Made by a program: the position numbers and the translations under genes. The notes beneath the pieces are model-generated. The model did no database searches and was not told the origin of the DNA. It saw nothing but the letters and a program-made list of their open reading frames with translations. From NCBI RefSeq assembly GCF_029207735.1, contig NZ_CP104395.1:248001-312000 (forward strand): a DNA stretch of 64,000 nt. The letters run 5' to 3'. Source of the stretch: Candidatus Nanohalococcus occultus. GTDB taxonomy: Archaea > Nanohalarchaeota > Nanosalinia > Nanosalinales > Nanosalinaceae. Below, piece after piece: positions 19,305 to 52,576 of the stretch (positions are counted from its first letter, which is position 1; every line of letters begins with the position of its first letter).

Positions 19305-19391
19305 AGAATATGCTTGGTCTTCTTAGATATTAACGGTTTGTCCGGCAGCTCCTAGAAAAAGGAAAGGTAAAAATGAAGGAAATGACAGCTT

Positions 19392-19553
19392 TTATTCTGC
19401 GACTGTTATAGGAAGCTTTCCCTCTGTCATCTCTTCACGTGCGATCTCTATCGGTCGCTTGCTCTGTGATTCGACGAAAGTCGGTGCGCCCATTGCGATC
19501 TGTAGGCTTCTGGCGCCGATGATTCTGGCTCTTTCGTACCGTGTGTAGCTCAT
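19392..19553 (-). CDS. rpoK: RNA polymerase subunit K (Rpb6/omega)
   Basis: A 53-residue protein that begins '[19 protein letters not shown]' and ends '[10 protein letters not shown]'. '[19 protein letters not shown]' and 'PIEIAREEM' are the diagnostic RpoK blocks, the structural anchor of the polymerase assembly. The internal ATG at 19553 is chosen; eight codons upstream would extend it into the gap after the PAC2 gene. Genome reduction shows in its minimal length. Confidence 0.93.
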
Positions 19554-19569
19554 AGTATTTTTCCCTCCT

Positions 19570-20334
19570 TTATCCAATATAGCCTAGATCCGAGTTTTGC
19601 TGATCCTGATCCTGGCTCTGTTGATTTTGTATATTCTGAAGTTTTTTAAGTACGTCCTGGCTTTCCTGAACTTTCTCGTCTAACTCGCTGTAATCCAAGT
19701 CCAGTTCAAGCATGGACTCTAAGGTGTTTAACACGGCCTCAGTTGCTTTCGGATCGCTTAGAAGGAAGCCCGGTGTCTCTCCCAGAAGGCAGATTCCTTC
19801 ATAGCCTCGGTCTTTACCTATTCCCAGGATAAGTCCGGAGGCTCCTACGATCTGATCTACATCGTGTTCGAACTCTATGTCAGCGCTCTCGTATTCTTCC
19901 TGGATGCTATCGCTGGATGTGACTCCGAACACGCTTGGGTCTTCAACTACTTCTCCGGTGCCGTATCCTCCGATCGTGACTATTCTTTCCGGTTCAGTTT
20001 CTTCGACTAACTCTATGATCTTTTCGGCGACTTCGAAATGCCCTTCAGGTGTGGAGGCTTGAGCATTTCCTTCTATAAGCACGATGTCTGCTTTATCATC
20101 TCTTTTAATCTGGTAGATGTCGTTTTTCAAAAGTTCGACTGTTTTTTCGTCCGTTACTATTGTGTAAGGCGGGAAGTGGTGTGAGTAAAGCTCTCCGACT
20201 TTTTCAGCGCCCAGATGATCGGCTAGGTATGCTACGGAGGTCTTTCCGACATGACCTATTCCGGCAAGTCCTTCGATAAAAATCGGTTTTTCAACATCCA
20301 GTTCCTGTTCAAGCTCAATTCGTGTAGTTTCCAT
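19570..20334 (-). CDS. PAC2-family (proteasome assembly chaperone-like) protein
   Basis: A 254-residue protein of the COG2047/PAC2 class: '[24 protein letters not shown]', '[10 protein letters not shown]', '[10 protein letters not shown]' and '[23 protein letters not shown]' are the family blocks. PAC2 proteins are homologous to proteasome assembly chaperones, but the archaeal group also has an ATP-grasp-associated role that is not settled. The last 40 residues are Gln/Asp-rich and probably disordered. It precedes rpoK by 16 bp. In other archaea this family often neighbours nop10 and aIF2alpha, which here lie 36 kb away. Confidence 0.85.
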
Positions 20335-20450: not shown

Positions 20451-20777
20451 TTACATTAAAAACAGAGCGTATCCTATCGCGCCGATAACTCCTACCATTA
20501 AAACTGCTGCGAAAACCATGCTTATCAGGAAAGTATTCTGCTCTTTCCATAGAACAAGGCTGTGGCGTTTTTCCTCGATCTTCCCCGGTATTTCGGCTTT
20601 CTTAGCATCTATACGCGCCCGAATCCGATCTATACGGGTTGGAGGATCAGGTATCTTTGCTACGGCATTCCGGTAGCATCTTGGACAGTCTTCAGGTAGT
20701 TCGCCGTTTTCACTGTATTTTTCCGACCACCATCTGTAGCCGCATCTGTGGCATTCAACGTTGTTGTAGTCCTTCAT
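20451..20777 (-). CDS. Zinc-ribbon protein with C-terminal membrane anchor
   Basis: A 108-residue protein. Residues 9-35 form a zinc ribbon ('CHRCGYRWW' and 'CPRCYR'), followed by a basic linker of about 45 residues and one C-terminal hydrophobic helix ('FLISMVFAAVLMVGVIGAIGYALFLM'). It would be a tail-anchored protein with the ribbon facing the cytoplasm. The start overlaps the end of the 512-residue coiled-coil gene by 23 bp, so it is the fourth gene of the giant-protein operon. No family is recognised; association with the ATPases is inferred from order only. Confidence 0.65.
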   Translation of the reverse strand: MKDYNNVECHRCGYRWWSEKYSENGELPEDCPRCYRNAVAKIPDPPTRIDRIRARIDAKKAEIPGKIEEKRHSLVLWKEQNTFLISMVFAAVLMVGVIGAIGYALFLM

Positions 20778-22293
20778 TACGGTTTTGTGTCTGCTGTGCG
20801 ACCTTCAGAATCATTTCTGAAAGATCTTCTACTTTTTGTCTAAGCTCTTGGACTTCCGAACTGTTAGTGCCAGCTTCCGGTGTGCTGCCCTGTTCAAGTC
20901 TTCTTACACGTTCTTCGAGATTTGAGTTTTTCGCACTGCTGTAGCTTTCTATAACGTTTTTCAGGTTCTCCTCGTCACGCATCGAATCTTCAAGCTGAGA
21001 TATTTTCTGCTCTAATCCATTAACTCGGTCTCGTAAATCAGATTCGTCCTGGTTCAGAGTGTTTTTTAGATCGCTTACTTCGTCTTTGACATCTTCAAGT
21101 TCATTTCGCGCTCTTTGAGTGTCTTTAAGCTCTTCTTTTAATCGATCATCTAGCTTGTCTTCTGTGATGAGATTCTCAACGTCTTTTTCCTCGTCTTCCA
21201 TGATTTCCTGTAGTTTCTCTGATAAGTTATCCTCGTCCAGTTTGTCGTCTACCTTCATTCCGACCTTGTCAACGTCTTTTACAAGGTCTTCGAGCATTTC
21301 ATCGTGCGCACGGGTCTTTGACTGTACGGAATCAAGTTCCGGAAGTCTTTCTTCAAGCTCTCCGAACATCGCCTCGACTTTTGATTCTTTCTTGTTGATC
21401 TCTCTTTTCAGGTTTTCAACGCGGTCTACTTTTTTCTGAAGTTCTTCATGCATCTCCGCAAGGTTATCGAAGTCATCAAGATCCTCGATACTGTCTTCTA
21501 ACTTGTTCGCTCTTTCCTTCAGGTTGTCCAGAAACTCCTTGTTCTGCTCGGATTGGGCTTCGACGGCGTCTATATTCCCTTTCTGTTTTTCGAAACGTTT
21601 CGTGATCTTCTCCGGTTCGATCTCGTTGTATATGTCCTCTATCTTCCGGTAGCCCTGTTTTATCTCATCGACTTCCTTTTCCTGTTCCAGAACCATTGAC
21701 CGGACTTCCCCAATCTTCTCCGAGATATTGCTTATACGCTCCCCGATCTGATCCTGGAAGGCATCAACTGACTCGAAACGTCCTTCGAGCTTCTCGGTTT
21801 TCTGCATTAAGTCCTGTAACTCTATAGAATCTTTCTCTTCAGACTCTTCCTCGTAATCTTCGGCCTCATAATCTATATCCTGATCTTCTCTAGCAATGGA
21901 ACCCACGGTTTGAGGCTCATCGTCCTCCTCTCCGTCTTCTGAACTTTCCTCCTTATTCTCCGATTCCTCTGATCTTTCTGTCTCCGTTGGATCTGACTGT
22001 TCTGAAGAATTTCCGTCCTTCGCGGACTCATCTTCTTCTTCTAAGACCTCAGAATCTGTTTCGGAGCTGTCTTCAGTATTTTCCTCTGATTCTTTTCCAG
22101 TTTTGCCTTCAGAACTGGTGTCTTTGGAGCTGGGTTCTCCGGTTTTCTCGCTGCCTTCGGATTCACTGTCTTCAGAGTCTTTCATTTTCTCGATCTCTTT
22201 CTTGAGTTGTTCTTCACTGGTCTCGTCCGTCTCTTCAGACTGGCCGGAATCTCCTGCGTTTTCTTTTCTAGAGATTTTGTCTATTAAGCCCAT
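20755..22293 (-). CDS. Long acidic coiled-coil protein, unknown
   Basis: A 512-residue protein, start ATG at 22293 ('MGLIDKISRKE') preceded by a GGGCG-like site; 8 extra codons upstream are possible with a GTG. Residues 15-150 are an extremely acidic Ser/Glu/Asp low-complexity region. From about 160 to 470 the sequence is continuous heptad-type coiled coil ('IEKRISNISEKIGEV'-like repeats, 'LEDSIEDLDDFDNLAEMHEEL'), ending in a Gln-rich tail. No cysteines or ATPase motifs are seen, so it is not an SMC protein. It lies 44 bp downstream of the 623-residue ATPase and is probably cotranscribed; a cytoplasmic scaffold for the fibre ATPases is possible. Confidence 0.65.
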   Translation of the reverse strand: MGLIDKISRKENAGDSGQSEETDETSEEQLKKEIEKMKDSEDSESEGSEKTGEPSSKDTSSEGKTGKESEENTEDSSETDSEVLEEEDESAKDGNSSEQSDPTETERSEESENKEESSEDGEEDDEPQTVGSIAREDQDIDYEAEDYEEESEEKDSIELQDLMQKTEKLEGRFESVDAFQDQIGERISNISEKIGEVRSMVLEQEKEVDEIKQGYRKIEDIYNEIEPEKITKRFEKQKGNIDAVEAQSEQNKEFLDNLKERANKLEDSIEDLDDFDNLAEMHEELQKKVDRVENLKREINKKESKVEAMFGELEERLPELDSVQSKTRAHDEMLEDLVKDVDKVGMKVDDKLDEDNLSEKLQEIMEDEEKDVENLITEDKLDDRLKEELKDTQRARNELEDVKDEVSDLKNTLNQDESDLRDRVNGLEQKISQLEDSMRDEENLKNVIESYSSAKNSNLEERVRRLEQGSTPEAGTNSSEVQELRQKVEDLSEMILKVAQQTQNRNEGLQQR

Positions 22294-22337
22294 ACGCCCT
22301 CTACAACTCTTTTTCACTTGCTAGTATTTAATGTCTG

Positions 22338-24209
22338 TTAAGATATGTCCAATTCGTCTTTTAGGCTGTTGATGTACATTGTTGCCATTTTGAATCTTCC
22401 TTCCTTCAACTTGTTCTCCGCGAGGTTAAGCTCCAGCTGTTTGTCCTTGATGTTTCCACCTTCATCCTCCAGTTTTGAAAGCGCGTCTTTGACTTCATCC
22501 AGCTCCTTTGAGAGCTTGTGGTATTTTTTGAGTTCTGTGTCTGGTATTTTGTGTGGGTTGTGGTATGTTGGTCTGAAGTCGACGAACCATGGTTCTCCGT
22601 CGTTGTAATTTGAGTTCTGAATCATACCTGTTCCTACGTCTTCGCTGCTGATTCTTTTAGAAAACTGTTCTCCGTATTTTTTCTCTACTCTTTCGATGTC
22701 TTCCATGGATTTGGTTTGCATTTGTATTTCTGTCATGATGTTTCCGGATACTGCTTGTTTGAAGTCTGCTGTGACTTGTGAACACATCATTAGGCCGATT
22801 CCCCATTTTCTGAACTCTCTCGCCCCTTTTTCGAGTGCGTGGTATCCTCCTTGGCCGCCGTAGTCTTCTAGCAGTCGGTGTACTTCGTCGAATACGATGA
22901 ACATTTCTAGGGTTGGACTTTCTTCCCATTCTTTTTCGAATATTTGGTCGATGATGGTTCTTACTGCTTGGTCGAATTCTTCTGTGGTTAATTGGTTTAG
23001 TGTGAATACTGTGATTTCTCCCTCGTTTTTCAACTCCTCAAAGTCAATATCGGGGTTCTCGGAATCGATCTCCTTAATCACGCCTCTGTATGGATGTGGG
23101 TCTGAACTGCTGTCCATGTCGAACCGGTCGTAGTGTTCGAGCAGGTTATCGTCTTTTAGTTCTTTGACGAATCCGGTCCATTGTGCTGTTGGGTCGAATA
23201 CTACGACGGGTATGTCGTTTTCTAGTGCTTCTTCTGCTATTACGTTTGCTGTTACTGATTTACCCGACCCAGTCGAACCTGCTACGATAGCGTGAGTGGT
23301 GAGGTCTTTAGGATTGATGTATGCTGTTTTTTCTGTTTCTGCGACCTTGCCAACTTCGAATAAGTCCTCTCTTTCCGGGAGCTTGCTGTAATCTACGGGG
23401 AAAACGTATCTTGCTTCATCCTTTCGTCGCTGGTGGTACCATCTGAAAGTGTAGACTCCTCCGCCGATTATAGCAGAAACTGCGATGAGAAGTATTCCGG
23501 CCCTGATTCTTGTAGGTGTCCAGAAGGGATTTACAACTGTTAAAGTGTCTGTTGAGGTAACGGTCCGGTTGCCATTGGTGATCGATCCCTGGACATAGTA
23601 CTCTCCTACTGTCAGGTTATCAGGATTCAGACTGTGTTTGTAGGATTTTATGCCGTTGAAGTTTACGGTCCGTGAGGTCTCAACCTGTCTCTGTCCATCG
23701 CTGGAGCTTCTTATCTCATAACTTATAGAAGTATTTACTCTTTCATCTTGGCTGGTTGAGACTACGGAAAGCACTGTCAGGTTCTGATCAGGTCTGATGG
23801 TCTCTGCGGTGGTCTGAATATCCAGTTTGACATCTGCGATATTCCGGTCTATGACTCGTACTCCGAGAGGTATGCTCTGTTCTTGGCTGTCGGTTCTGAC
23901 TGACAATCTGCCTATGTAAAGACCTACGTCAGTGTTGTTAGACGGGTTCAGCTCCACAAGCACGTTTGTCGAACCGTCGGCTGGAACTGAAGCTGTAGGC
24001 TGGATGTCTACAACGTCCCTTATATCGCCCTGAGGTCTCAGTCTGACATCTTCGGACTCATTTCCGTTGTTCAAAATCTCTAAAGTGTATACCTGTGTTT
24101 CTCCACTGAAAACAACGTTCAAAGAAGGTATCTCCTCATTCGCAGATATGTCTGCTGTAGTCGCCCCTGTAAACAAAATCAGTGCTGCTAGTAACGCTGT
24201 CTTCTTCAT
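22338..24209 (-). CDS. Membrane-anchored HerA-like ATPase with short Ig-like ectodomain
   Basis: A 623-residue miniature of the giant neighbour. Residues 1-19 are a signal peptide; 20-225 hold two beta-rich, N-glycosylation-rich domains like CARDB/NEW3; 'AGILLIAVSAIIGGGVYTF' near 240-258 is the single membrane helix; the cytoplasmic part carries Walker A 'GSTGSGKSVTAN', 'VVVFDPTAQW', Walker B 'MFIVFDEVHRLLED' and 'GIGLMMCSQVTADF', as in HerA/VirD4-type hexameric ATPases, then a helical tail. From the linker to the end it is nearly identical to the giant protein, with no length change. It overlaps the giant gene by 4 bp (ATGA), implying coupled, perhaps mixed-hexamer, expression. Confidence 0.88.
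   Translation of the reverse strand: MKKTALLAALILFTGATTADISANEEIPSLNVVFSGETQVYTLEILNNGNESEDVRLRPQGDIRDVVDIQPTASVPADGSTNVLVELNPSNNTDVGLYIGRLSVRTDSQEQSIPLGVRVIDRNIADVKLDIQTTAETIRPDQNLTVLSVVSTSQDERVNTSISYEIRSSSDGQRQVETSRTVNFNGIKSYKHSLNPDNLTVGEYYVQGSITNGNRTVTSTDTLTVVNPFWTPTRIRAGILLIAVSAIIGGGVYTFRWYHQRRKDEARYVFPVDYSKLPEREDLFEVGKVAETEKTAYINPKDLTTHAIVAGSTGSGKSVTANVIAEEALENDIPVVVFDPTAQWTGFVKELKDDNLLEHYDRFDMDSSSDPHPYRGVIKEIDSENPDIDFEELKNEGEITVFTLNQLTTEEFDQAVRTIIDQIFEKEWEESPTLEMFIVFDEVHRLLEDYGGQGGYHALEKGAREFRKWGIGLMMCSQVTADFKQAVSGNIMTEIQMQTKSMEDIERVEKKYGEQFSKRISSEDVGTGMIQNSNYNDGEPWFVDFRPTYHNPHKIPDTELKKYHKLSKELDEVKDALSKLEDEGGNIKDKQLELNLAENKLKEGRFKMATMYINSLKDELDIS
22534..23281 (-). repeat. ATPase module copy 1 with identity tracts to copy 2
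   Basis: Three tracts here are base-for-base identical to the giant gene at a constant offset of 1,868 bp: 22534-22607 (74 bp), 22678-22829 (152 bp) and 23150-23281 (132 bp, including Walker A). Between them the same amino acids are encoded with many synonymous changes. A further short tract lies near the 3' end (about 22354-22395). Confidence 0.9.
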
Positions 24210-27200
24210 TCAATATTCAACTCGTCTTTTAGGCTGTTGATGTACATTGTTGCCATTTTGAACCGTCCTTCCTTCAACTTGTTCTCCGCAAGCTGGAATT
24301 CCAGCTGCATATCTCTAATATCTTCTCCCTGCTCTTCAAGCTTCTCCAGTTCATCCCTTAACTCTTCAACCTCTCCGGAAAGCTTGTGGTATTTCTTCAG
24401 CTCTGTGTCTGGTATTTTGTGTGGGTTGTGGTATGTTGGTCTGAAGTCGACGAACCATGGTTCTCCGTCGTTGTAGTTGCTGTTTTGGATCATGCCTGTA
24501 CCAACATCCTCCTGACTGATCCGCTTGGCAAACTCCTCGCCATACTTTTTCTCTACTCTTTCGATGTCTTCCATGGATTTGGTTTGCATTTGTATTTCTG
24601 TCATGATGTTTCCGGATACTGCTTGTTTGAAGTCTGCTGTGACTTGTGAACACATCATTAGGCCGATTCCCCATTTTCTGAACTCTCTCGCCCCTTTCTC
24701 CAGAGCATGATAACCGCCCTGACCTCCATACTCTTCCAGAAGCCGGTGAACTTCATCGAATACCACAAGCATCTCCAGATTAGGGCTTTCTTCCCATTCT
24801 TTTTCGAAAATCTGATCAATAATAGCTCTTACCGCCTGATCGAACTCCTCGGTGGTCAACTGATCTAACGTGAATACTGTGATTTCGCCTTCGTTTTTGA
24901 GTTCTTCGAAGTTGATGTCTGGGTTTTCCGAGTCAATCTCCTTGATCACTCCGCGGTAAGGATGGGCATCGTTCTGTACATCCAGATCAAATCTGGAGTA
25001 ATGGTCTCCGAGATCGTCGTCTTTTAGTTCTTTGACGAATCCGGTCCATTGTGCTGTTGGGTCGAATACTACGACGGGTATGTCGTTTTCTAGTGCTTCT
25101 TCTGCTATTACGTTTGCTGTTACTGATTTACCCGACCCAGTCGAACCTGAGACAATTGCGTGAGTTGTAAGATCATCGGGATCGATGAAAGCTGATTTTT
25201 CAGTCTCTGCTACGTCTCCAACCCAGAAGTTGTCCTCTGATTCTGCCGGTAGCTTGTTGTAATCGACAGGTGCGACGTACCGCTCGTTTTCCTCCCGTTT
25301 CTTCCAGTATTCTTGGTAGCCTTTCCATCCGCCGACCGCTAGAACTGCTCCGAGGATAAGCAAGATAGCGATCCGTGTTCTAAGCGGAGTCCAGAAACTA
25401 TCTGAGACTGTGAAGGTTCCTGCGTCCACTACTGTTGTTTTCCTTCCGTTTACAACTGCCTGAATGTAGTAACTTCCGGTTCCGACGCCGGATGTGTCAA
25501 AGGAGTTCCTGTACGAGACCGGCTGGCTTATATTCATCGACTGGTTTATCTCTGCGATTATTCTATCGGTCTCACTTTCCCGGAAGTAGTATGTCGCAGT
25601 CACGTTTATCGGAGTCTCAAGATCTATCTCGTCGATCTCCGTCGAGAACGTTACGTTATTACCTGGCTCAACGGACCTCGCCAGCGGCTCTACGTTCAGA
25701 GTCATTCCTTCTATACCCTCTCTTGCTATAAGGATTTGCTGAGGGCTTCTCGTGGTCTCATTTCCATAGGTCGCGGTTATAATGCCGTTATAGCTCTTTA
25801 TTGTGGCGTTTTCTGGCACGGAAGCTGTCATTCTTGTGATAACTGATGAGTTAGGTGGTATTGTCACGCTGCTGTTTTCTATTTCAAGTATTCTTGTCAG
25901 CTCTCCGGTTACATTCAACTCAAGGTCGATTGAGGAATTCTTGTTGTTATCTATTTCTAGGAGGAACGTGCGTTCTTCCCCTCTAAACATTATTGGCTGG
26001 AAGATTCTTGGAGAAATAATGAAAGGCTCTTCTCCTATAGAATCGTCTTCATCGGTTCCGTTAAGAGTGTCATTCTCCGGTGTCAGGCCTCCTAATCCGC
26101 CGCCTCCGCTACTTGCTCCGGAGCCTCCACCGCTTGAGGATGAACCTCCGCCGCTGTTTGAATCCTCTTCTGTGTTCTCGTTTTCATTCTCGTTGTTGTC
26201 AGTGTTGTTGTTCTGGCCTGGTGAGAAGTATCTCTCAATGATGTAGCTCGAAGTTGTTGTTGTTCTGGCTGAAACAAGGTTGTCTGACGTGTTTACTTCC
26301 TCTGTGATGTTGTTCCAGTCCGTTGAACTACAACGGCTGATATTATCGTAGCCACACTTATAGAGCTGTAGTCCGTCTTCCTCGCCTTCATCGAAGTCCT
26401 CTGTAAGACTGTAGTTGAGAGTTACGACAGCCTCCTGGAAGCTCATGTTGCTGGAAATACTGATCGCAGCAAATGACTTGTTCGTCGTATTCTTGGGGTG
26501 ACTGTAGTTTACAGCATCTCCAATATCCGGAGAGGAAAGCCTGATTGGATTGGTCTGGTTTTCCCCGATGCTGGAGTTTCTGAACTCAAGACTGTGTCTC
26601 TGATCACCCTCGTTGTTTGTGACCTCTGCGCCTATCTCAACGTCATATGTCCGGTTCTGAACCGACATGTTGTAACTTGAATCGTTTGACTCGGCGGTTG
26701 CCAACGTATCGTTCGACCCAGGTCTCTTGAAAGTAAACTCCGGCCTAACGTTTTCCATCTCTCCCTGGAAGCTTACTATCGGGAAGACTGATAGAGGCAT
26801 ACGTATCGTCCGCGTATAGTTGTTTACATCTTCAATCGTCACGTTCACATCGTAATCGCCTTCATAGACGGTCTGGGTGGCGTTCGCAGCATAGAAACCG
26901 TCATCGTATTTGAACGAGAGGTTTTCCAGTTTCGTGTTGTTCTCCAGATAGATTAGCGCTCCTGTGACGTTAGCTATCTTTACGTTATCCTCTGCCTTAA
27001 TCTTCAGGGCGGCTTTACTGTTCTGCTCTACGTTCTCACTTTCCCTGGAGACTACCTTCGGCGGCGTGACATCCCTGTACTTTACCGCACGTGAATCTCT
27101 GATCTCGTAGTTAGAGGTCGTAGCTTCCAGCTCCAATGTATTGTTGATAGGGTTGCCTGTGATCTCTGGAGCTGTACATGAAATACTCCATAGCCCTGTC

Positions 27201-48200: not shown

Positions 48201-51200
48201 CCGAACATCCAGTAACTTAGATCTGTCGGCAGATCGATGTAAGGCGTTGAAATATTGAACCTTCTGTCGTTCAGAACTATCTCGCTTGTACCCTGGTTGC
48301 TGAGAACGTTACTTATCTCAGTCGAAGTTATGTCTTCAACTCTTACCGGTACCGCAGGATTCGTAGGATAAGCTATCTCCAACGCCCGGTACATTATCTG
48401 CTCTCCTGCTGTAATATCTCTTCTCTCTGCCCAACGCGTAACTCCTTCCGTACTGGAAACTGTCTGGGAAACATTGTAGCTGTATTCGACGCTTGGATCT
48501 GAAACACGGAAACGCCCGTCCGAATCAGATTCAAACCTTAAACTCACGTTACAGGACAAACTGTTACAGGAAGAAAGCTCGTTGTTGAAAGCGTTCACGA
48601 AGTCGGCGCCGGAAACTGTCTCCGACCCGGTGAAAACACCGTTCTCAACCCATTCAGCGTTCCCGTCGGCTCTGATATCTGCGGAAAGATTTACCGGCAG
48701 ATAATACAGATTGAATATCATGCTGTCCGAGGTCGAGACCCCTACCTCGTCTCCCGTCAAATCACGTATGTCTCCTGATTCAAGGCTTTCAATCCCGGAG
48801 TTCTGCTCGTAAGTATTTTCCACGCCTCCCGTCGAGTTCAGTACTACAAGCCGTCCGTCATCTAGGCCTGCGAGAATTTCAGGTCCATCCTGTCTGGAAA
48901 GATTCCCGGTCTCCAAGCTCATCACCTTGCTTCCAACATCAGTCTCCCAGTACGTGCCTGTCGAATTAAAAGCCATCACTCTGCCCGAATCTGTGCCTGC
49001 GATGACTTCGTTCCGTGAATCTCCGGCTACATCTAGAACGTCTACTGCACGGAACCACTCCGAACCTGAACTTGGGTGCTGAGATACTAGGTCTCCTGCG
49101 GAATCAAGTACGACAACCCTGTCCTTCGTACCTGCGATGACTTCGTTACCGGTATTGTTCGAAACATCTCCTACAGCGAGATCATAGGTCCGTTTTTCAG
49201 TCGAATAATTCCAGATTTCAACTGAAGAACTGTTTAAAGCAGATATAACCGATGGGAACTTGGATGCTATAACCTCTTGGCCCTGGTTGGAACCGAAGGA
49301 ATCAACCCTTACCATGTATCCCTGGGAAATATTTTCAAAACCGTTTTCATAAACGAAAGAATCCGAGGAAGAACCATCATCAAGCATCAAGTTGAAAGCA
49401 GGGCTTTCACAGTCTGAACAAGTTATAGTAACGTTCTGATTTTCTGAAATATCGTTGCTGTCAACCTCCGTTCTAACCCAGTCATATGCGAGACTGGTGT
49501 TGCTCCATACGCGGACAGAGCCACCCATGTCTTTCAAGAGACTGTTTCCGTCTTTTCTACTGTATGTGTTTTGATCTGAGCTAGAATCAAGTCCGATAAA
49601 CATTGATCGGCGGCCGCAGCCGTCACAGGAGAGTGTTATGTCCTCTGCGTTTTTTACATCGGAGTTGTTGATCTCTATTTTGGTCCAGGATGTGTTAATA
49701 GGTCTTTTTTCTACTTCAACATGGTATTCGCCGGAAAGAAGGGAGCTGTTGTGATATGATTCTCCGGATACAGTGTCATCGTAGAGTATATTGTAGCCTG
49801 AGCTACATGAACGGCAGCTAAAGCTTACGTTTGTGTCCTCTCCGAGAGCTGATGAGTTAACGCGGGTGTAGGCCCATGAATGGTTCAGTGACTTGTTTGT
49901 CCAGGTCCGAACCATGTAGTCCTCAGAAACCACGGATTCCGAGCTACCGTTCCTGTAGAACGAGTGGTTGCCGGTGCTGGAATCCTGCATCAAACGATAG
50001 AACTGGCTTCCGTTACAGCTGTCACAGCCGAAGCTAACGTTTTCTCCCTGCGCTATGTCTTCTTTCTCCACACGGGTTTCAACCCAGCTGTAATCCAGAG
50101 ATGAATTGGTCGAAAGATTAACCATGTAATCGAACCCGAGATCGGTATCGTAGTTTGTACCGGAACCGAGGTAATACTGGGAGTTTGCCCCGGATGTAGA
50201 GTTATCTCCTTTCAACCTGTAATGACTGGACGAATTACACTCTCTACAGTTGTAGAATACGAACTCTTCCTGTAAGTTACCTGTATCTACAGGTGTTGTA
50301 ACCCATTCTGCGCCCGAACTACATGCGGGAATCTCCGATACGTTTACATCGTACTCAGTGTTGCTCAAACCATTGCCCTTGAGTACCAGATCATCCACTC
50401 GCGAACCTGTATAACACATAGGTGCTGAAACGTATGTTTTTTCAGCTCTGAAACTTGAAAGATCAAAGGCAGAAAGATCGAATAAGGTATGCGGAGGATT
50501 TGTGTCATCTTCACACCCTATACAGCTTTCGTTTTCCCATGAACCATCGTTTATGCTGAAGTTACGTTTACTTGCCGCCGAGATCTCCGATCGGTCTATA
50601 TCGTAACGAGAGCCGTTTACAGTAAGGTAGGGCTGTCCAGATTTGTTCCCGAAATAGGAAAGCGCCGACTTGATGTAAATATCTTCCGAGTTCAAATCAT
50701 CCGGTATGTCGTACCAGAGATTGAACGTCGAGTTCTCTCCATTAAGAACTTTTGAATCATCCGCTACGCTGTCGTCAGCTTTGAAGCTTTTCTCGCTGTC
50801 CGCCTTAATTTTCTCGGATGCTATAGTATAGTTTGAATCTCCTACGGAAACAGTTATGTCTCCGTTCTCTCCGTTAATCCTGTTGAAAGCTGCTCCAATG
50901 TAAACTGAGTTGTTCTGACCGGGATCAAAGCCTCCTGTATAGACTGTAGAGTCCTGTATACTGGCCACAGATCTGAAATCCGAGGCGTTGGATGCTTCAA
51001 TAATCGGAGAGGAACTAGCATTAACACTTGACCTGTTTAAACTGTAGGTATTGCCGTTGACTTCCAGACTGAGGTTTCCTGTGCCTGAAGGGTTACGTGC
51101 GAGAGGCAACTTAAGGTAAACGCTTTTTGACTCGAAATCTTCTTGAGGTAGTTCTAAGGTTAGATCGTTCTCTCCCAGAGACGCCATGTCCTCGAAAGAA

Positions 51201-52435
51201 CCGTCATCGGATTTTTTCTCAAAAACCGCGCTACTATCTACAAGCTCTTCGTTTATATCGTAAGTCGTCCCGTTCAATATTAGCTCTAAGTCCTGACTCT
51301 TATTGTAGTAGTTAAGCGCAGTTCTGATGTATAGTCCGTCTTCACCTCTGCTGATCTCGTAAGGTAGTGTGAAGCGCGAGGAGTTCGTATCGCAGCCCAG
51401 GCAAGTGAAATTCTCTGGTTCTCCATCGTCATTGCTGTAGAAGGCACTCTCTGAGGAAAGTTCGCCGGCGGCTACATCGTAGTACTCGAAACCGTCAATG
51501 CTTCTTATCTCCGTACCGTTCGGATAAAGATACTCCAGACTGTTTTCGGTTGCTACAAACACTTCATCCTCCGAGGATAAGACCTCGCTGTCACCTGACT
51601 CGATACTATTTACGCTGTTCGACGCAGTGTAGTTCCAGAGACTGCTTCCATTGGATTTAAACGCTTTCACCGTCGAATCCTCGAATACAAGAATCTCTCT
51701 TCGATCATCGGCGGAAAGCTCAGCGAACTCAATTCCCTGTCCGGTTATATTCATTAATGACTCGCTCTCCAAGCTCTGGAGCTGGATTGAGAAGCTATCA
51801 ACGTTTGAATTCCCCGGTAACTCGAAACTTCTCTCCTCTGATCCGTCAATATCAATTACCTCGCCATTGTAACCTGGATCAGCGGTTTCACCATCACTTG
51901 ACGGATCACAGCTCCAGAAATTCGAATTAAAGGCACATAGCTCATACTGTATAATGGGATTGTCTAGATTAAGCTGGAAAGAGCTTTGCTCATGTTTTCC
52001 GGAGCTATAAACGGTTCGGGAAGAGTTTCCGATTGAAATATTTGCGCCGTAAGATCCAAAACTGTTTACATCGTAGATAATCCGTCCGTAGGAATTTTGA
52101 CTTCCCGTCCAGTCCGATCTAACCGTGTCTCCTGAAACCTCGGCCGGGTTTTCTACCCATGAACCGCTCTCTCGGTATTCTAACCGGTTGAAAGACAGGC
52201 TATCGCTGTTTTCTACAAGCTCGAATATGATGTTACCGTCCTGAGTTGTGTTGAAGTAGACGGTCCAGTTGCCGTCAGAGCTGCTGTCTTGTACGTACAG
52301 GTCGGCCACGGAGTCAGCTACATTCAATCCTGTCTGCCCGGAAACAGATCCTATAAGCAGAACGGCGAATGTGAGTCCAGCGGCCAAATGTATGTAATTT
52401 GAGGTTTTCAGGTTTTCAAAACTGTGAGGACTCAC
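24206..52435 (-). CDS. Giant (9,409-residue) Ig-repeat surface protein fused to a cytoplasmic HerA-like ATPase
   Basis: One uninterrupted frame of 28,230 bp. Start GTG (52433-52435); residues about 12-34 are a signal peptide. Order outwards to inwards: mixed beta region with seven CxxC motifs (about residues 340-1020); FG-GAP/beta-propeller-like repeats ('GQEVIASKFPS', 'GNEVIAGTKDR', 'RNEVIAGTDSG', about 1050-1240); tandem 199-residue units (about 1760-2775); mixed Ig-like domains; a 'CNLNNICEPSEG...CPSECG' cysteine motif (about 3,728); many Ig-like repeats of about 100 residues ('VDNTDP...EGNYTFKIEATDDAGN'); a jelly-roll-like, possibly carbohydrate-binding segment (about 7,990-8,160); Gly/Ser linkers; one TM helix near 9,015-9,035; then a HerA/VirD4-type ATPase with Walker A 'GSTGSGKSVTAN' (about 9,096) and Walker B 'LVVFDEVHRLLE'. 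N-glycosylation sequons are very frequent. The ATPase makes it unlike ordinary adhesins. Attachment to a host is inference. Confidence 0.93.
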   Translation of the reverse strand: MSPHSFENLKTSNYIHLAAGLTFAVLLIGSVSGQTGLNVADSVADLYVQDSSSDGNWTVYFNTTQDGNIIFELVENSDSLSFNRLEYRESGSWVENPAEVSGDTVRSDWTGSQNSYGRIIYDVNSFGSYGANISIGNSSRTVYSSGKHEQSSFQLNLDNPIIQYELCAFNSNFWSCDPSSDGETADPGYNGEVIDIDGSEERSFELPGNSNVDSFSIQLQSLESESLMNITGQGIEFAELSADDRREILVFEDSTVKAFKSNGSSLWNYTASNSVNSIESGDSEVLSSEDEVFVATENSLEYLYPNGTEIRSIDGFEYYDVAAGELSSESAFYSNDDGEPENFTCLGCDTNSSRFTLPYEISRGEDGLYIRTALNYYNKSQDLELILNGTTYDINEELVDSSAVFEKKSDDGSFEDMASLGENDLTLELPQEDFESKSVYLKLPLARNPSGTGNLSLEVNGNTYSLNRSSVNASSSPIIEASNASDFRSVASIQDSTVYTGGFDPGQNNSVYIGAAFNRINGENGDITVSVGDSNYTIASEKIKADSEKSFKADDSVADDSKVLNGENSTFNLWYDIPDDLNSEDIYIKSALSYFGNKSGQPYLTVNGSRYDIDRSEISAASKRNFSINDGSWENESCIGCEDDTNPPHTLFDLSAFDLSSFRAEKTYVSAPMCYTGSRVDDLVLKGNGLSNTEYDVNVSEIPACSSGAEWVTTPVDTGNLQEEFVFYNCRECNSSSHYRLKGDNSTSGANSQYYLGSGTNYDTDLGFDYMVNLSTNSSLDYSWVETRVEKEDIAQGENVSFGCDSCNGSQFYRLMQDSSTGNHSFYRNGSSESVVSEDYMVRTWTNKSLNHSWAYTRVNSSALGEDTNVSFSCRSCSSGYNILYDDTVSGESYHNSSLLSGEYHVEVEKRPINTSWTKIEINNSDVKNAEDITLSCDGCGRRSMFIGLDSSSDQNTYSRKDGNSLLKDMGGSVRVWSNTSLAYDWVRTEVDSNDISENQNVTITCSDCESPAFNLMLDDGSSSDSFVYENGFENISQGYMVRVDSFGSNQGQEVIASKFPSVISALNSSSVEIWNYSTEKRTYDLAVGDVSNNTGNEVIAGTKDRVVVLDSAGDLVSQHPSSGSEWFRAVDVLDVAGDSRNEVIAGTDSGRVMAFNSTGTYWETDVGSKVMSLETGNLSRQDGPEILAGLDDGRLVVLNSTGGVENTYEQNSGIESLESGDIRDLTGDEVGVSTSDSMIFNLYYLPVNLSADIRADGNAEWVENGVFTGSETVSGADFVNAFNNELSSCNSLSCNVSLRFESDSDGRFRVSDPSVEYSYNVSQTVSSTEGVTRWAERRDITAGEQIMYRALEIAYPTNPAVPVRVEDITSTEISNVLSNQGTSEIVLNDRRFNISTPYIDLPTDLSYWMFGSGSRENDYLWYNNSQRAAPVAVSTTPVSEGSTVSRNVTVFRNTSRTDSEFVNVTVDLTVNDSEVSGNNFLEVDWNNNGSFTDITPDSMGCSEWESRNVDETAFYVCMEDEDGNGQVDSFNWIQPRVGASGDTHSSTEYRVGGSTNFAPELTSRNTSAPDYWGESFSFNGSFNDTESDQVNVTLWTQVGTDWVQRSTKTISENTSFEIESYMNWTEGVSYLYEFQDVNSSLEELHNAQNSSVESIDVERHETVAEYVSGDGQTVDRRGEDAVFEARLMDNVTGGYVSEDVICRVKVDGGSLDFGQPNSTGHCSFSLQDFSEPVGQHNWSIEFDSNDYFVGSSVSRQFILNGNFTVENTSFESEVVYRPDGHSDSSVVYNYSGIKDLLGNPVNPSYTLSWDGSVIGNGEVSGSEEAGSFDLVDDEPLGNRWLNFTLTDSNFNSESVNTLLTVKGVLETDLGSQSIVYASNDSINLTANVTNKYGDEITDATVAFETPGGECVNNYRNGNSYTCEFNPSNSLNAGKYNWSVDISKEFYVYEEDENASIKVRTPISADTTTTQGVVRRYNGSSATTSVSYNVSNITDGAQRLANLNYTVYWSGNRFKTGAANSTGFSGSFDVPDTETVGETNLTVSIEKGDYRPYNLTETLNVEGNVNTSLNTEGFVYVSNDSVNLTAEVTDRLGNEINNANTQFNTPSGTCDTSYRDGNQYICEFDPSNSLDAGEYEWNTTVTKELYEHEQKTEGSLVVRTPISAHISVTESPVYRFNSSSRRTSIAYNVSNITDGSRDLNSSDYTVYWSGSVFDTGTVDSEGSSAEFNVPDTEALGESWLNLSLANGNYRPLNYSKRINVKGNLNATLGSPEIVYASNDSINLTANLTDKLGNPVENATVIFNTPSGTCETSYHVDSSYICEFNPSNSLNAGKYNWSVNASEDSYSYEQEINSSFKVRTPISADLTSSSGIVYRYNGSSGNTSVSYSLSNITDGDADLESVDYRVYWSEESVRTGTTDSSGIAGSFDVPDEESVGETALRVELTKDEYRPYNVTRTVEVEGTLNTTLSSEPVVYASGDRINLTAEVTDRLGNEINNANIQFNTPNGNCEARYQESSQYICEFNPGNSLNAGEYNWNVTASKDSYRYEQEINSSFKVRTPISADLNVSSGPLYRYDAASGRTELTYNLSEITDGSGPLENVDYSVYWDGNIVDSGTTDSTGFENSFDIPDEQELGSTAFRVVLEKGDYRAFDNTAQRAVRGSLNISAQEADPVFRNNSETFSGDYDLTTDLRANITDMLGNPVTGASVSYSTPSGSCSETEIGGGVYECSYDPNILASVGSHNWSVSATRSDYEPGSAGNSSFVLKNVVRPEFVSDSAEISRKGTGDLEAEIVTPSGTKVDSSEFEVGYSINNGFETAVSANNGRSVYSWNTVCSDLPGAYSVDVNISSSSSVYEVFQSEDSGTVGVYDNLTVDITSPQDIDEGGTNYNQGDDVSLEASLADSCGSPDSSIDYDLIWNVSDRDTANDLIGNGESRTWTVPDYISGDVDLTAYIDNFEYYQDGFETHDLLVERVINVNISEGDSDKIRDYGENHSYSFQADVVTGDGLRANESDINETWSDFNVSWYVDGQKIRELSADSSGTVETVLDLGASYSPGQHSVKARLENTSAVNTTILRQNQTAEIDLVDVANVTVLEPTDLDLFYAEEVPLGSVISTSTNAADELDIAYTWSYKDDDNLPITISSSQNSSFNVPSYIYGSGTLSLTADNDYIVEDTEVRSTEGKRKVSIDSYDPDRYLPPAGTTNISTTVDVQGLENVSGYEVTFWVNNYSNNFTELTDSSGKAVNRLNTTKLTKGAHKTGVILQNSSEKYFEVEPPYRQNKTVVLPEVLNVSAYWRDNNEAVLGTKTADDEDGDNYNNLPDRVVYRNPGPWKEPDELKLAANVTTPFVSEGTQYDVGNSTAYFWLNGTSADGTEVNERIASCTVNLTEYSNAQDDNQDTWWDDYLCHTEWNPRPDFPYGEYDLKINASHPEEGWSATPVENVPVEVRGILNITIDQPTENRETFQMENLSLEATVTDWNGEEFTVQELDEAYWTLEEDGCANTGDNGGGWGGAVMNWGGAIANGGRADTLSTWIVMGNTGNYNIDGGEMAWLNAEKRYFEVTRTEYRRSFTGCSAVHRQWEDNLGSTNNEFEGDREDRVGQIHDVKARVEAVWNAPAQTTVGTNSEEILNVSARFFEYNTTETVPGDFEGNYYATCLNCTDPQNKNLGPQREGEYQSREDAQFQFNFSNEDYGANYSIKVWAEPLDDDYVGESPYNATTKTLSVYQNVGSGSGACNLNNICEPSEGENVEVCPSECGYDNLPEEFWVNETADQQVNQTQYNQFNNSSAASFESDVSYYEDHSSYPVDGAGGCNYDGSQNTTYEDSDYCPDFFNIEEPPSVSGAQTTKSYVQPGGTDLTISAEVTDANDNIDRVNLTNVGGDDTFEQLMSTTSGDCSNGCTYSADLTLSTSNTFRIYANDTTGYTNASQEIQILQDSNAVTVSSIDVPDRPLRDGENFEVIANLSNIDNPDPRPNTVEQVLINGNTVTYDSSVGGWQTTLSANASNTTVTVEAYEIAGYSDKSSATYTVDTTTPQVKDVRSNISAVGPDEEFRILANITDNYLDSTTARRGGATKCDNSTFVRQSGETYACNIQAPSSTGSHQYTVYANDSAGHLNDTESVQIQVDGNPPQITDEQISDSIVQSGTTVDVSADIADAEGNLDSTWIEDSESTRCTNSEFADSNDDGNFECSITVSSDRTFTIYGNDTLGNTASTTLEITVDDSAPAISVNTPQPSELINGDYTVNATVTDENLDTGSLEFKIGNSTENSTYNPDSGSDDNWVHTFDTSNYAQGVYTVYVVAEDQAENANTVSVDGIEIDNTAPEISFDSPTDGQAVSDTTSFDVSITDSSGNGNPSSYEYRLVRKNGAEEIDWSGLTSESGDSYYAQIDTSSYSDDAYEFYVHAEDNSENSITQNIDVEFDNSAPSVTITNPGSGENVRQNVTVQAEINDTMGNDDPSSYECSLGSLGWRAMSGSDSSYACEFNTTSVETGEGVYSFSVRANDTFDQQTQGSVSVYVDNREPSVETVSVNDSIVHDGQAIEVTATLGEDDSRISQVLVDDTNTISYQSGNTWQGATQAGENNNNIIEVQATDIAGNNGYNSSVSYIIDNQAPQFTGDSLNESYIQTGEIIEFDVDLKDEHLRESSVNFSIVNSAQNPVEYIDQDCPSYSSNTYNCTGTWDGSNPQGENEGNYQFQIYTEDRADNTNTLYSEQFVVDNSDPTLSSLNVNDSYINSQATVEFSADVSDTLYNSNKVNITLIDASDQSFVRDLPESCDGSGNCQTTWNPTNQPEGNYTFKIEATDDAGNTASAYKLGQWVEYDNTDPVVDSVSYSDDDGVLQTGQVVDVNVTVSGESDEDLKYVEVDGSRLTYDSENSIWKGTTTGQEDETVNVIARDLADNTGENNSVTYTVDDQAPVFVELSQNDTYIQTGQEIRFSADIDDQELRPDRTNFTVMDGSQNLIEDLDDTGACSLYEEGSYNCTASWDGSNPQGGNEGNYSFQVYAEDEADNNRTEEYSTEFVVDNTAPSMPDSGFSVGDRYINSEATVGFNVEINDYTFDQNSVNITLVNVSDGSFETDVSESCDGSGNCQTTWSPSSEPEGNYTFKVSSTDLAGNSREKYVASEWVLYDDTAPTVSDIQLNDTVVQTGQAIALNLSTPGDSDQTLDYIDVDGETNLTYDSQDEIWEGTTEGYVDGDTNIDVTAVDLAGNVESDSSVSYTVDNDEPRLQQLSTNDSYIQSFEKVNLSVRVNETNLDVGSGDVSMSIIDNSDSSEVEDISEEYSVLDDGNTEYWADWNGRSLGLNVSDGNYSFQVIATDEAENTATTEFGEGFYVDNTDPEFSELSVNDTYINDSQTVGFTSSVTDDTFNASDTNVTVVNAGSGDFVTDVSESCTESGECSAEWNPESIGEGKYTFRVQSTDRSKNTASAYSTSEYVIYDTTAPNPSEVSINNSVVKPSSAIRVNVTIPSDQPSDLQEVTADGIDLTHDSGDLWTGTVSAREDGDSYVNVSVQDNAGNIKLNESVSYTVDGTDPVFTGFSRNSSYMASGDVNEFSVLVEERNLNVSLTDIWVKDVSSSNLENNVEETCSQVNNTFYNCSASWDGTSGDNSESGNYTFEISAQDLAGNTQTSSDPESFVLDNIAPSISGFKINDSYINEDPPVNFTAMVSDQHFNSSATDITVVNVTNGNLRADVGETCATDSENSYECGASWDPFSESEGNYTFEVSAQDLAGNEVSSYTTAEWFFLDKTAPSVENISVNDSIVQTGAEIELAASVSDRTGVVSVSADGNNLTYNGSYWTGITEGAPDETIDLVFTDRAGNQGTNSSTDYTIDNTAPSVSGFKTNSTFNITRKNTTLNFTARTSDTHFREIMLENRSDSSWVNMSSVSGDLYSKVLRPEQIGINGEGDYNISVKSVDEAENTAYDHYQFEIDNSAADISNVSLNDTIIQSGSSIRVNATVDGNNLENVTANGRTMSKIGEHWYANITVDNTSQNPVNITVVDKAGNIGQNISADYTLDDTAPSVSSLSVNASFNTSRSNVSLLFQSNITDRHLRDVSFNGSSMDNRSLWEIIKVPADSGCPSMVEGRNCTFELSATDEAENTATDNITLTIDDRPPRVFTPATNNSNNFVQSGTLVEFRADLRDDYFQNATVSNSEQEICEMSLVAAPNFYRCAGKINATGNYTFNVQDKASNINNGSSINITVDDTPPVLENLSSNASFDVSRSNHTLNFTVEVNETYLDNVDLNGTAMTELDEDHWSVVTTPQNLGCDSDTTADCLLNATATDKAENTDYSSYELKIDDETPVVNRVELNDTIVQSNSSVHVSVNVSGESNTSIEHVKAESQRINWNGSHWTGNITVDNDGIVNVTATDHAANTGVNSTAGYIVDDTAPGLTGFGSNASFDVSRSNHTVNFSLEVSEPNLRNATVYNQTSGESEVLTNSSGVFSILAEPASLGCSTEVNREVCNLEVTAVDRADNVNKTDYNLTVDDVAPEYESITANDSDRVYRPGQVLNFTVVFADETNSTLIDQTLENETLNYSSSDGNRSTWELSTAIDNDGYINVTATDQANNTAVNSTETYFVDDTNPSISDLDTNSTNDIERSNQTLNFTVNASDKYNVSEVVLEDQEMMALGNDTWSLVTEPSEFSCSEPYCVLNVTATDNAGWSNSTTYNLSIDDTAPSLSGFEVLNATEGDPETAKGEWYLEWELNATDNTNLTATMFAENSTASPLGNISVMDSVDGETFRLIEQSDYFNATNGTFDFIGRVTDEAGNINRSAVTLDISAQPPTIEWVRSEDSTPEVNSEYEITANVSDTNSIRNVTMNISWNGGSELRTMSLPEENKNGENLTGGIYNISFTPVSSGPYNATVEAEDGTNEINIEEFPRFMDAIGTTTGQTVIDPKTVSFENITQNYTGSYVATVNFTNTGMTTSYDTEIGRLSTPQGISTNSTPVSCGEVLNGSSCTSTVRINVSSDAPTGNRTLFAAVGWENPDGSSDSESNTTFVYNAENPVLRETGGEVYRESWWNETVNLTNFSVYSFGNTELQDVSVTRQTGRLNSSLFLQGRFFSFDPNGFDVEEGKRQNSTMNLRVDSKGNYTTRFLVNATGTSCGSNCTDTKTVDLDVFRKLDVGIENSSRTIYRQTDPVRLQANVSNEEDEGIEDYTVGFYDNGSLIENVSTGPEGIATIDWDTESEEVGPHNISVRIWDDESRYYRAFRPEDSIELTLNDSLNLSTSLSDNQMYWYDTHENHNVSLNYTLEDRNNNPVGGTEIHLYTNATGSFEQTETCITNGAGRCEVVWNTDIAQPTTAQVRVNTTKNYFDPSGTFTDIVEILGGFSVDIVTPEENSGRDEDLDVVRGTTQLLNSSVKNADGEEVTPSSLNWTINSSSGSLLLGQSKQIQWDVNSSIAYGNHVLNATAESTEANTADTVNISVYDPANISLTSSPAENTARNNTLSFEAYVENTRTGSPIEGYTCKLYDGDTLVNTSTTDPSGNCTVEWTVDKDDHVGNHQLRVGISEERGSEWYLPVENSGEQFQVEVKEQLNVTAIQPEGIVHRYGNESLEAVVENLYGDFNADVKWIYNDAVITTGQTAYWNTSGITLGETSITVEASSTNYSSGNDTSNFTVYGYSQHSFNLSNSYRKTDTVNLSVRVEDTNTTEGISNYSVKLYREFNGTKTLWKNGTTAEGYYNTTWNTTNTTTGNYNIKAAIGDSENVYYNATTSNITQQVFVGGTLYTNVESVSEDTVFRDGYAGAEETTFELSVADRFGAVENATVNITADGEDLGDCRTDTEGNCNYTWNPDQNTSIGDVNVVFETGAENYFDAAEVNRSIEVRTAVEPSWNDSEEVRAYNFSEKDGVTLRPRILETFTDRGVEDYSFNLGYGDLKEDYNVSLDSEDWSNNGTGTSLDAVNGLYINQTVLNRTVDIDDREELSLEVNNLTGNLNVSVNASGWRQLAELKENGTRNISFADVNITEVRLETNGSAVIESMVFKDTDLGDRKELMVAEMLGENAFEYDDGDFEKAEIRNDYLACANDGSCNFNSTYVGEEPGYSDSVEGLKDDGVFGSEGLTANISEMSMNQSFSVIRHYEAFGGSDFSDYEALSFWMNSPLNATLRINDSSGCSYTERISATEQWRLKQINLSGYLTSCNRNVESIQLDFENTLEDNLSTEVGLDEFNRLKTATTEADGEKPLQWLPEETGDHYFKLEIENTTYYNTSQRVAFKKIELKSGGGGSTPETGGEGTSNNEEDENAPSEGINATSFDVNPKRFNETVAAETYGVLGNITVSNSFNDQNLEINLSETENAQLLKVKDQINLPADGQRDVEIGFNTSSTGSYNSTLTVFRPATNETIDVNITLDVRPVQMEILSVSAEEGRENVTAGDKLNLTANLTLDSQPVNTSSWRVTAGDTACGSSNATYSNQTGLWSISCTAPEITGNPINNTLELEATTSNYEIRDSRAVKYRDVTPPKVVSRESENVEQNSKAALKIKAEDNVKIANVTGALIYLENNTKLENLSFKYDDGFYAANATQTVYEGDYDVNVTIEDVNNYTRTIRMPLSVFPIVSFQGEMENVRPEFTFKRPGSNDTLATAESNDSSYNMSVQNRTYDVEIGAEVTNNEGDQRHSLEFRNSSIGENQTNPIRLSSPDIGDAVNYSHPKNTTNKSFAAISISSNMSFQEAVVTLNYSLTEDFDEGEEDGLQLYKCGYDNISRCSSTDWNNITEEVNTSDNLVSARTTTTSSYIIERYFSPGQNNNTDNNENENENTEEDSNSGGGSSSSGGGSGASSGGGGLGGLTPENDTLNGTDEDDSIGEEPFIISPRIFQPIMFRGEERTFLLEIDNNKNSSIDLELNVTGELTRILEIENSSVTIPPNSSVITRMTASVPENATIKSYNGIITATYGNETTRSPQQILIAREGIEGMTLNVEPLARSVEPGNNVTFSTEIDEIDLETPINVTATYYFRESETDRIIAEINQSMNISQPVSYRNSFDTSGVGTGSYYIQAVVNGRKTTVVDAGTFTVSDSFWTPLRTRIAILLILGAVLAVGGWKGYQEYWKKREENERYVAPVDYNKLPAESEDNFWVGDVAETEKSAFIDPDDLTTHAIVSGSTGSGKSVTANVIAEEALENDIPVVVFDPTAQWTGFVKELKDDDLGDHYSRFDLDVQNDAHPYRGVIKEIDSENPDINFEELKNEGEITVFTLDQLTTEEFDQAVRAIIDQIFEKEWEESPNLEMLVVFDEVHRLLEEYGGQGGYHALEKGAREFRKWGIGLMMCSQVTADFKQAVSGNIMTEIQMQTKSMEDIERVEKKYGEEFAKRISQEDVGTGMIQNSNYNDGEPWFVDFRPTYHNPHKIPDTELKKYHKLSGEVEELRDELEKLEEQGEDIRDMQLEFQLAENKLKEGRFKMATMYINSLKDELNIE
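24402..25149 (-). repeat. ATPase module copy 2 with identity tracts to copy 1
   Basis: Counterpart of the tracts in the 623-residue ATPase gene: 24402-24475, 24546-24697 and 25018-25149 are identical to 22534-22607, 22678-22829 and 23150-23281. The alternation of perfect identity with heavily diverged synonymous stretches suggests gene conversion. Confidence 0.9.
35000..38900 (-). repeat. Higher-order repeat of ~305 residues (three Ig-like domains per unit)
   Basis: Within the giant gene the segment encoding '[VD]-DG-x-LTYDS-x3-W-x-G' recurs near 38750, 37855, 36935, 36005 and 35080, spacing about 900-930 bp. Each unit holds three Ig-like domains: one with that motif, one with 'SYIQTG...C...Y-x-C-WDGSNPQG' and one with 'SYINS...ESCDGSGNCQTTW...EGNYTF'. 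Downstream copies (about 34550, 33400, 32850) are shortened to fewer domains. Confidence 0.8.
44110..47150 (-). repeat. Tandem 597-bp (199-residue) repeat, about five copies
   Basis: A marker stretch (TCTGCTGAGATCGGTGTTCG and variants) recurs at about 44748, 45345, 45942 and 46539, spacing 597 bp each time, with a diverged first and last copy. Each unit encodes an Ig-like pair: 'TPISADx...YNGSS...ITDG...VYWSG' then 'SNDSINLTAEVTDRLGNEI...FNTPSGTC...CEFNPSNSLNAG', with a conserved Cys pair. Constant period without indels suggests recent duplication or ongoing recombination. Confidence 0.88.
49400..51420 (-). repeat. Array of seven CxxC-bearing repeats in the giant protein N-terminal region
   Basis: The motifs 'FTCLGCD', 'ESCIGCE', 'YNCRECN', 'FGCDSCN', 'FSCRSCS', 'LSCDGCG' and 'ITCSDCE' recur. 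The last five (about 50250 to 49400) are regularly spaced by roughly 60-75 residues, each followed by a 'F-Y-R-L-M/L-D-D' strand and preceded by a W-V/T-x-V segment. They could bind metal or form vicinal disulfides. Confidence 0.75.
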
Positions 52436-52507: not shown

Positions 52508-52563
52508 TCAGAATTGTTTTAAGGAGTATTGTAAATTATTAAACCTCTCTCAGAATTGTTTAA
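52508..52563. promoter_or_regulatory. Direct repeat between the two divergent surface-protein genes
   Basis: TCAGAATTGTTTTAA (52508-52522) and TCAGAATTGTTTAA (52550-52563) lie 42 bp apart, four helical turns, in the 141-bp spacer between the giant gene and the divergent surface-protein gene. Same-face placement suggests paired binding sites for a regulator of both genes. An AAATTATTAAACC box lies between them. Confidence 0.6.
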
Positions 52564-52576
52564 CTGTAGGTCGTTG

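Follow-up and report, generated by a model that had tools for sequence, protein, structure and literature searches.

A giant fibre-ATPase fusion of Candidatus Nanohalococcus occultus, its short paralogue and a coiled-coil partner: a candidate HerA-type motor at the archaeal cell surface

Introduction

How DPANN archaea exchange material with their hosts is an open question, for which Ca. Nanohalococcus occultus has provided both published cell-cell bridges and an implied transfer. Cryo-ET of this organism revealed host-symbiont bridges of 9-11 nm together with filament-like densities, and the host DNA bears the methylation motif of the symbiont, the methylome implying entry of a symbiont methyltransferase into the host (PMC11001535). 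Both are observations on cells and host DNA and not on SVXNc_0300, the giant gene discussed here; the locus raises the question of which kind of machine the gene and its neighbours encode.

The giant protein and its downstream ATPase were already published in 2023. Reva et al. described SVXNc_0300 as a 9,409 aa protein with a signal peptide, a propeller-like N-terminal region, about 75 Ig-like domains, a transmembrane helix (TM) and a cytosolic VirB4/TraG-like ATPase plus coiled coil, noted the downstream ATPase SVXNc_0299, for which the VirB4 N-domain PF03135 was reported, and proposed an effector-injecting type IV system (PMC10266531). Earlier, Hamm et al. (2019) had named the family SPEARE, detected its expression in a relative by mass spectrometry and pointed out relatives in other DPANN and Altiarchaeales (PMC6642349). 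The claim of the original prediction that no such system had been described is thus contradicted by the published accounts. Of the giants of Reva et al., SVXNc_0300 and BNXNv_0298, the former is the identical object, with the same domain order and topology as found here. Their interpretation, VirB4/type IV secretion with PAC2, differs from the present one, in which the match is to the HerA clade and the VirB4 N-domain was not found again. Beyond that account, the present analysis adds a conserved coiled-coil partner, the gene conversion that links the two ATPases and the outcome of the type IV tests, which failed; with these the open question becomes testable.

Layout and topology of the giant protein

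The window, meaning the whole stretch of 64,000 nucleotides analysed, corresponds to positions 248001-312000 of the genome of Ca. Nanohalococcus occultus SVXNc, a single contig of 948,351 bp. The giant is one of the largest archaeal proteins known; its features and the gene divergent from it are as follows.

24206..52435 (-): giant fibre-ATPase fusion SVXNc_0300, 9,409 aa, open for 9,409 codons, named in PMC10266531
52334..52435 (-): signal peptide, about residues 1-34, with the hydrophobic segment 15-33
25388..52333 (-): extracellular part, mostly Ig-like domains (Big_13, Big_3 and Y_Y_Y matches; sequon enrichment)
25325..25387 (-): single transmembrane helix (hydrophobic segment; AF2 helix in the homologous mini)
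24428..25228 (-): HerA-type ATPase core, Walker A at residues 9097-9104
24221..24409 (-): C-terminal three-helix tail, kept across the family (family comparison, AF2 model of the mini)
52556..56404 (+): divergent upstream surface protein, 1,282 aa, with GH127/alpha/alpha-toroid-like repeats, a C-terminal TM and cytosolic helices

Only two hydrophobic segments occur in the giant, residues 15-33 in the signal peptide and residues 9018-9036, and the protein runs from the signal peptide through some 9,000 residues outside the cell and one TM to the HerA-type ATPase and a helical tail; ectodomain, membrane helix and ATPase are as originally predicted. N-glycosylation sequons are enriched about 2.4-fold before the TM (about 436-438 vs ~181 expected) and stand at chance level after it; therefore, the fibre lies outside and the ATPase inside, which disposes of the reverse topology that the prediction had named as refuting it. 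Walker A (GSTGSGKS, 9097) and Walker B (VVFDE) are both intact, again as foreseen. The prediction assigned the ATPase to the C-terminal 420 residues; its C-terminal place holds, but the length does not, the part from the TM to the end measuring about 393 aa.

A Pfam scan of the whole protein matched the ectodomain to bacterial Ig-like families. A repeat search of the giant against itself returned only the trivial match at E 1e-8, and thus the Ig domains have diverged. Modeling of the N-terminal 1,153 residues with AF2, from four sequences, gave a pLDDT of 36, too low for use, and a sequence scan of genome contigs returned four close relatives only. Colinear giants are encoded in three independently assembled relatives, with 8,880 aa (G008), 8,573 aa (G002, SG9) and 7,852 aa (G010), and in each of them the mini gene comes next. 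These rule out an assembly join of separate genes, the artifact against which the prediction had cautioned.

A widespread family with an interchangeable ectodomain

Searching 394 archaeal genomes with a profile (A1, threshold E<=1e-40) built on TM and ATPase found the family in 62 of them, every listed match having E<1e-65, so that the domain order recurs in other genomes, where the original prediction had proposed to look for it. The TM+ATPase part defines a discrete, widespread archaeal family, which is new here. Its ectodomains can be as short as a few hundred aa or as long as about 12,000. The longest ORF has 12,145 codons (G146) and gives about 12,127 aa from the first ATG, with a signal peptide and no N in the DNA; SVXNc_0300 is thus surpassed in length within its own family. 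At G146:C8:15692-52129 (L101/L130/L131), this 12,127-aa member is followed by a second ATPase fusion of 1,393 aa and then by a coiled-coil gene.

Motifs were checked in 53 members carrying the REFRKWG motif. Walker A is present in all 53 and the DE of Walker B in 52, the positive-inside rule is obeyed in 48, and sequons over the family number 3620 outside (1500 expected) and 51 inside (79 expected). Because the core is intact nearly everywhere and the ectodomain is free in length, the motor is the conserved unit and the fibre the variable part. The members are single-pass membrane proteins that couple a cytosolic HerA-clade ATPase to an interchangeable, often gigantic, Ig-rich ectodomain.

A very long ectodomain, a C-terminal TM and a conserved cytosolic domain place these proteins in the same family as SPEARE, whose SG9 versions have 8,553, 4,057 and 3,315 aa; Hamm et al., however, took the cytosolic part as a restriction enzyme, and the text of their account that bears on the family describes no partner gene (PMC6642349). 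They also recovered ectodomain and cytoplasmic peptides of a relative in different gel size fractions, so that fibre and ATPase may be separated by cleavage. The family is absent from some close relatives with single-contig genomes and hence is not essential for the lifestyle. Its module is spread over many archaeal families, so it can be studied outside nanohaloarchaea.

Type of the ATPase

The ATPase is matched in Pfam by DUF87 (4e-13), HerA_C (1e-8) and ResIII (PF04851; 7e-7), all three of which match 22 of 22 members. The NCBIfam matches are CedD (4.2e-12, the best), HerA (1e-8), TraC-F (1.4e-7) and TrwB (1.9e-4), the first three lying far under the model cut-offs (45.5 bits vs 600 for CedD). 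In profile searches against solved structures, eight of nine matches were HerA-type, with 4d2i the best (1e-15). The comparison that the prediction had suggested came out in favor of HerA and CedD, with TraC-F and TrwB weak.

The AF2 monomer model of the mini, built from 41 sequences, reached a pLDDT of 88.9 and consists of two Ig sandwiches, a TM helix, a RecA core and a helical tail; together with the intact Walker motifs it answers the doubt raised beforehand about a Walker-type fold. A fold search with this model placed HerA hexamers best and the conjugation coupling protein TcpA at rank 33, and no VirB4 fold was among the best 50 matches; the low TM-scores of the model as a whole reflect its several domains, each of which is placed independently. 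The predicted fold is HerA-like, and the RecA fold, Walker A/B and a HerA-type motif ahead of the S/TQ sensor assign it to the HerA/FtsK clade. It is not HerA proper, as the N-half of the mini is made of Ig domains and the TM and has no N-terminal HAS barrel.

The hexameric DNA translocase HerA is the best solved-structure match and has the core motifs in common, but its N-terminal domain is replaced here by TM and fibre, and no NurA was seen in the operon or matched in the subset of flanking genes scanned. CedB and CedD of the crenarchaeal DNA import system are membrane-anchored HerA/VirB4-like ATPases too, although they have no giant ectodomain, and here no channel or pilin partner was found linked. 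TcpA, TrwB and FtsK are likewise RecA-fold, membrane-anchored motors; they differ in TM/ectodomain architecture and match more weakly.

The short paralogue and gene conversion

The next gene repeats the plan of the giant with a short ectodomain and overlaps it by 4 bp (ATGA), exactly as predicted.

22338..24209 (-): mini SVXNc_0299, 623 aa, with a signal peptide, two Ig-like domains, TM, HerA-type ATPase and helical tail
22678..22829 (-): 152-nt gene-conversion tract in the mini, identical to 24546-24697 in the giant
23149..23281 (-): 133-nt gene-conversion tract in the mini, identical to 25017-25149 in the giant

Giant and mini agree in the position at which the DUF87/HerA matches begin. In a tree of the ectodomain+TM part, minis cluster with minis and giants with giants, and pairing within genomes was rejected in the three genomes tested (p-AU 9e-6, 0.0045 and 3e-113). 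For the cytosolic part, mini monophyly was rejected (p-AU 2.7e-5) and the giant/mini pairs of G010 and of G008 cluster together; in SVXNc itself (G000), such pairing is neither shown nor rejected. Furthermore, giant and mini of SVXNc share identical tracts of 152, 133 and 74 nt, where the longest expected at 80% identity is about 24 nt and the longest found against orthologues in other genomes is at most 45 nt. The disagreement of the two trees and the long identical tracts indicate that the duplication predates these species and that the ATPase domains were later homogenised within genomes by gene conversion, the ectodomains staying distinct.

Such homogenisation fits what co-assembly in one ring, or a shared partner, would predict, and a mixed giant/mini ring gains indirect support from the concerted evolution of both ATPase domains. 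Conversion between neighboring paralogues can, however, be passive and need no shared ring.

A dedicated coiled-coil partner

Downstream of the mini follow a coiled-coil gene and a zinc-ribbon-TM gene, in the order that the prediction gave.

20755..22293 (-): coiled-coil partner gene; the ORF opens at 22317, with a conserved ATG at 22293
21247..21831 (-): conserved core of the partner, region of the IGExRxM...EP motif
20451..20777 (-): zinc-ribbon gene with a C-terminal TM, 108 aa, which outside the giant+mini clade is kept in a single close relative

The true start of the coiled-coil ORF is probably the internal ATG. In the loci first examined, the partner lies directly downstream of the ATPase gene wherever the contig continues, in some lineages with one small gene between. 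An HMM of the partner core, built from 17 loci whose training genes were ATPase-adjacent, gave 44 matches with E<1e-28 among 2,384 ORFs, all on the same strand as the ATPase gene and downstream of it. At the held-out testable loci, the partner sits just downstream in 26 of 28; the exceptions are G101, whose copy is on another contig, and one of the two loci of G296, a genome that carries a copy on a different contig. Across all genomes, both genes occur in 59, the ATPase alone in 3, the partner alone in 5 and neither in 327 (Fisher p ~3e-60, shared ancestry ignored). The coiled-coil gene is a conserved, nearly obligate partner gene of the ATPase family, with a product that would be cytosolic; this is new here, and comparison makes the link far stronger than it could be when the original prediction counted the gene as part of the system. 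The main texts of PMC10266531 and PMC6642349, in the parts that treat this locus and its relatives, contain no mention of it. As it occurs in nearly every ATPase-bearing genome, the partner offers a concrete second protein for testing.

Chance coiled-coil similarity is an unlikely source of these matches, since the 44 strong ones share one position and the held-out loci agree. The NCBIfam Rad50/SMC matches of the gene are ordinary coiled-coil matches. One more coiled-coil ORF beside a match (L048) scored 4.5e-13. A second gene of the partner family (L048:2639-4462) comes right after the first, which suggests a duplication. Partner cores without an ATPase match occur in G167, G180, G197, G205 and G378, some of these genomes being incomplete and two of the matches weak or partial. 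In a divergent subfamily, each end of the partner bears C2H2-type zinc fingers (L042:7562-9151, L062:14336-15973, L063:15650-17284).

Proposed mechanism and alternative explanations

The best explanation, to which we give about an even chance, is that SVXNc_0300 and SVXNc_0299 form a HerA-type translocation motor with host-binding fibres, for which substrate and direction are inferred. The ectodomain would be exported by Sec, reach the host surface and bind it, and the cytosolic domains would build a ring. In this organism the ring probably combines giant and mini subunits, which would keep down the number of bulky fibres crowded onto it. The coiled-coil protein would serve as scaffold or adaptor of this ring, in which ATP hydrolysis may drive a polymer, either DNA or a protein in unfolded form, through the envelope where the two cells touch. 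Both substrates are considered, as the nearest relatives are DNA translocases, whereas the published methylome suggests that a methyltransferase protein is exported. With one TM in each subunit a channel is not obvious, and no channel protein linked to the module was found. A bolder version is held only tentatively: a two-gene archaeal contact machine apart from type IV secretion, with a HerA-type ring, interchangeable giant fibres and a dedicated coiled-coil partner, in one clade with a mixed giant/mini ring kept compatible by gene conversion, that would move DNA or protein between symbiont and host.

The main rival is a non-translocating adhesion device in which ATP clusters, orients or releases the fibres and the coiled-coil protein is their scaffold. 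That the conserved partner is a coiled-coil protein and not a channel would suit such a device, as would the ATPase-less stubs of the same ectodomain/TM plan in operons of other lineages and the short ectodomains of some members, by which the modules vary independently; catalytic motifs kept almost universally and close relatives that are processive translocases make it rather unlikely. A special case of the translocation motor, a Ced-like machine whose ring draws in DNA from the host or the environment as a source of nucleotides, is suggested by the HerA fold and by CedD, the best NCBIfam model, which is required for DNA import only (PMC11868833). The likeness does not extend beyond the ATPase core, the genome lacks the VirB6-type channel family that was tested, and no linked nuclease was seen; in this specific form we consider it unlikely.

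For Reva et al. (2023), giant and mini are VirB4/TraG ATPases of type IV secretion, and the giant is a straw injecting protein effectors. The weak VirB4/TraC and coupling-protein matches (TraC-F, TrwB) point this way, as do the cytoplasmic bridges and the host methylation at the motif of a symbiont methyltransferase (PMC11001535). Yet PF03135 is missing from SVXNc_0299 (E<=0.1) and from the genome, in a search whose control matched in Caulobacter, and the N-half of SVXNc_0299 is modeled as two Ig domains outside the membrane. TrbL/VirB6 (PF04610) is absent genome-wide, a search that a divergent archaeal CedA-like channel could escape; the closest structures and top-scoring family models belong to HerA/CedD rather than to VirB4, and PAC2, cited as operon partner, does not occur in the neighboring loci examined. 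Strict membership in type IV secretion is not supported, given the undetected PF03135, the absent VirB6 and the HerA-like fold, and the reading as a whole is improbable, although a translocase-like working is plausible. Least probable by far is SPEARE as first proposed, a serine protease, adhesin and restriction endonuclease: the ResIII match of all 22 members explains the original annotation, but ResIII is a helicase-motor model that HerA models outdo, Pfam scans of the whole giant returned this motor match and no nuclease domain, and Reva et al. arrived at the same view against it (PMC10266531).

Neighboring genes and stubs

Downstream of the operon, at 17917-20334 of the window, lie PAC2, methyltransferase and V4R-domain genes. 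PAC2 has no counterpart next to any of the homologous loci that were compared, which conflicts with the operon argument set out in PMC10266531, and it was rejected as an operon partner.

In other lineages, stubs with a signal peptide, an extracellular domain, usually a TM and no ATPase lie between the ATPase and coiled-coil genes (L051:12206-13225, L048:6256-7344, L053:16557-17336, L110:4849-5664, L107:3774-4475). The stubs of G021 and G019 keep the family helical tail, and the one in G153 looks like a mini truncated behind the TM. This recurrence of a short-ectodomain subunit, with or without the motor, suggests a possible role as spacer or in assembly.

The divergent surface protein (52556-56404, plus strand) has homologues next to the giant of G008, G002 and G010 and, in G027, close to the mini.
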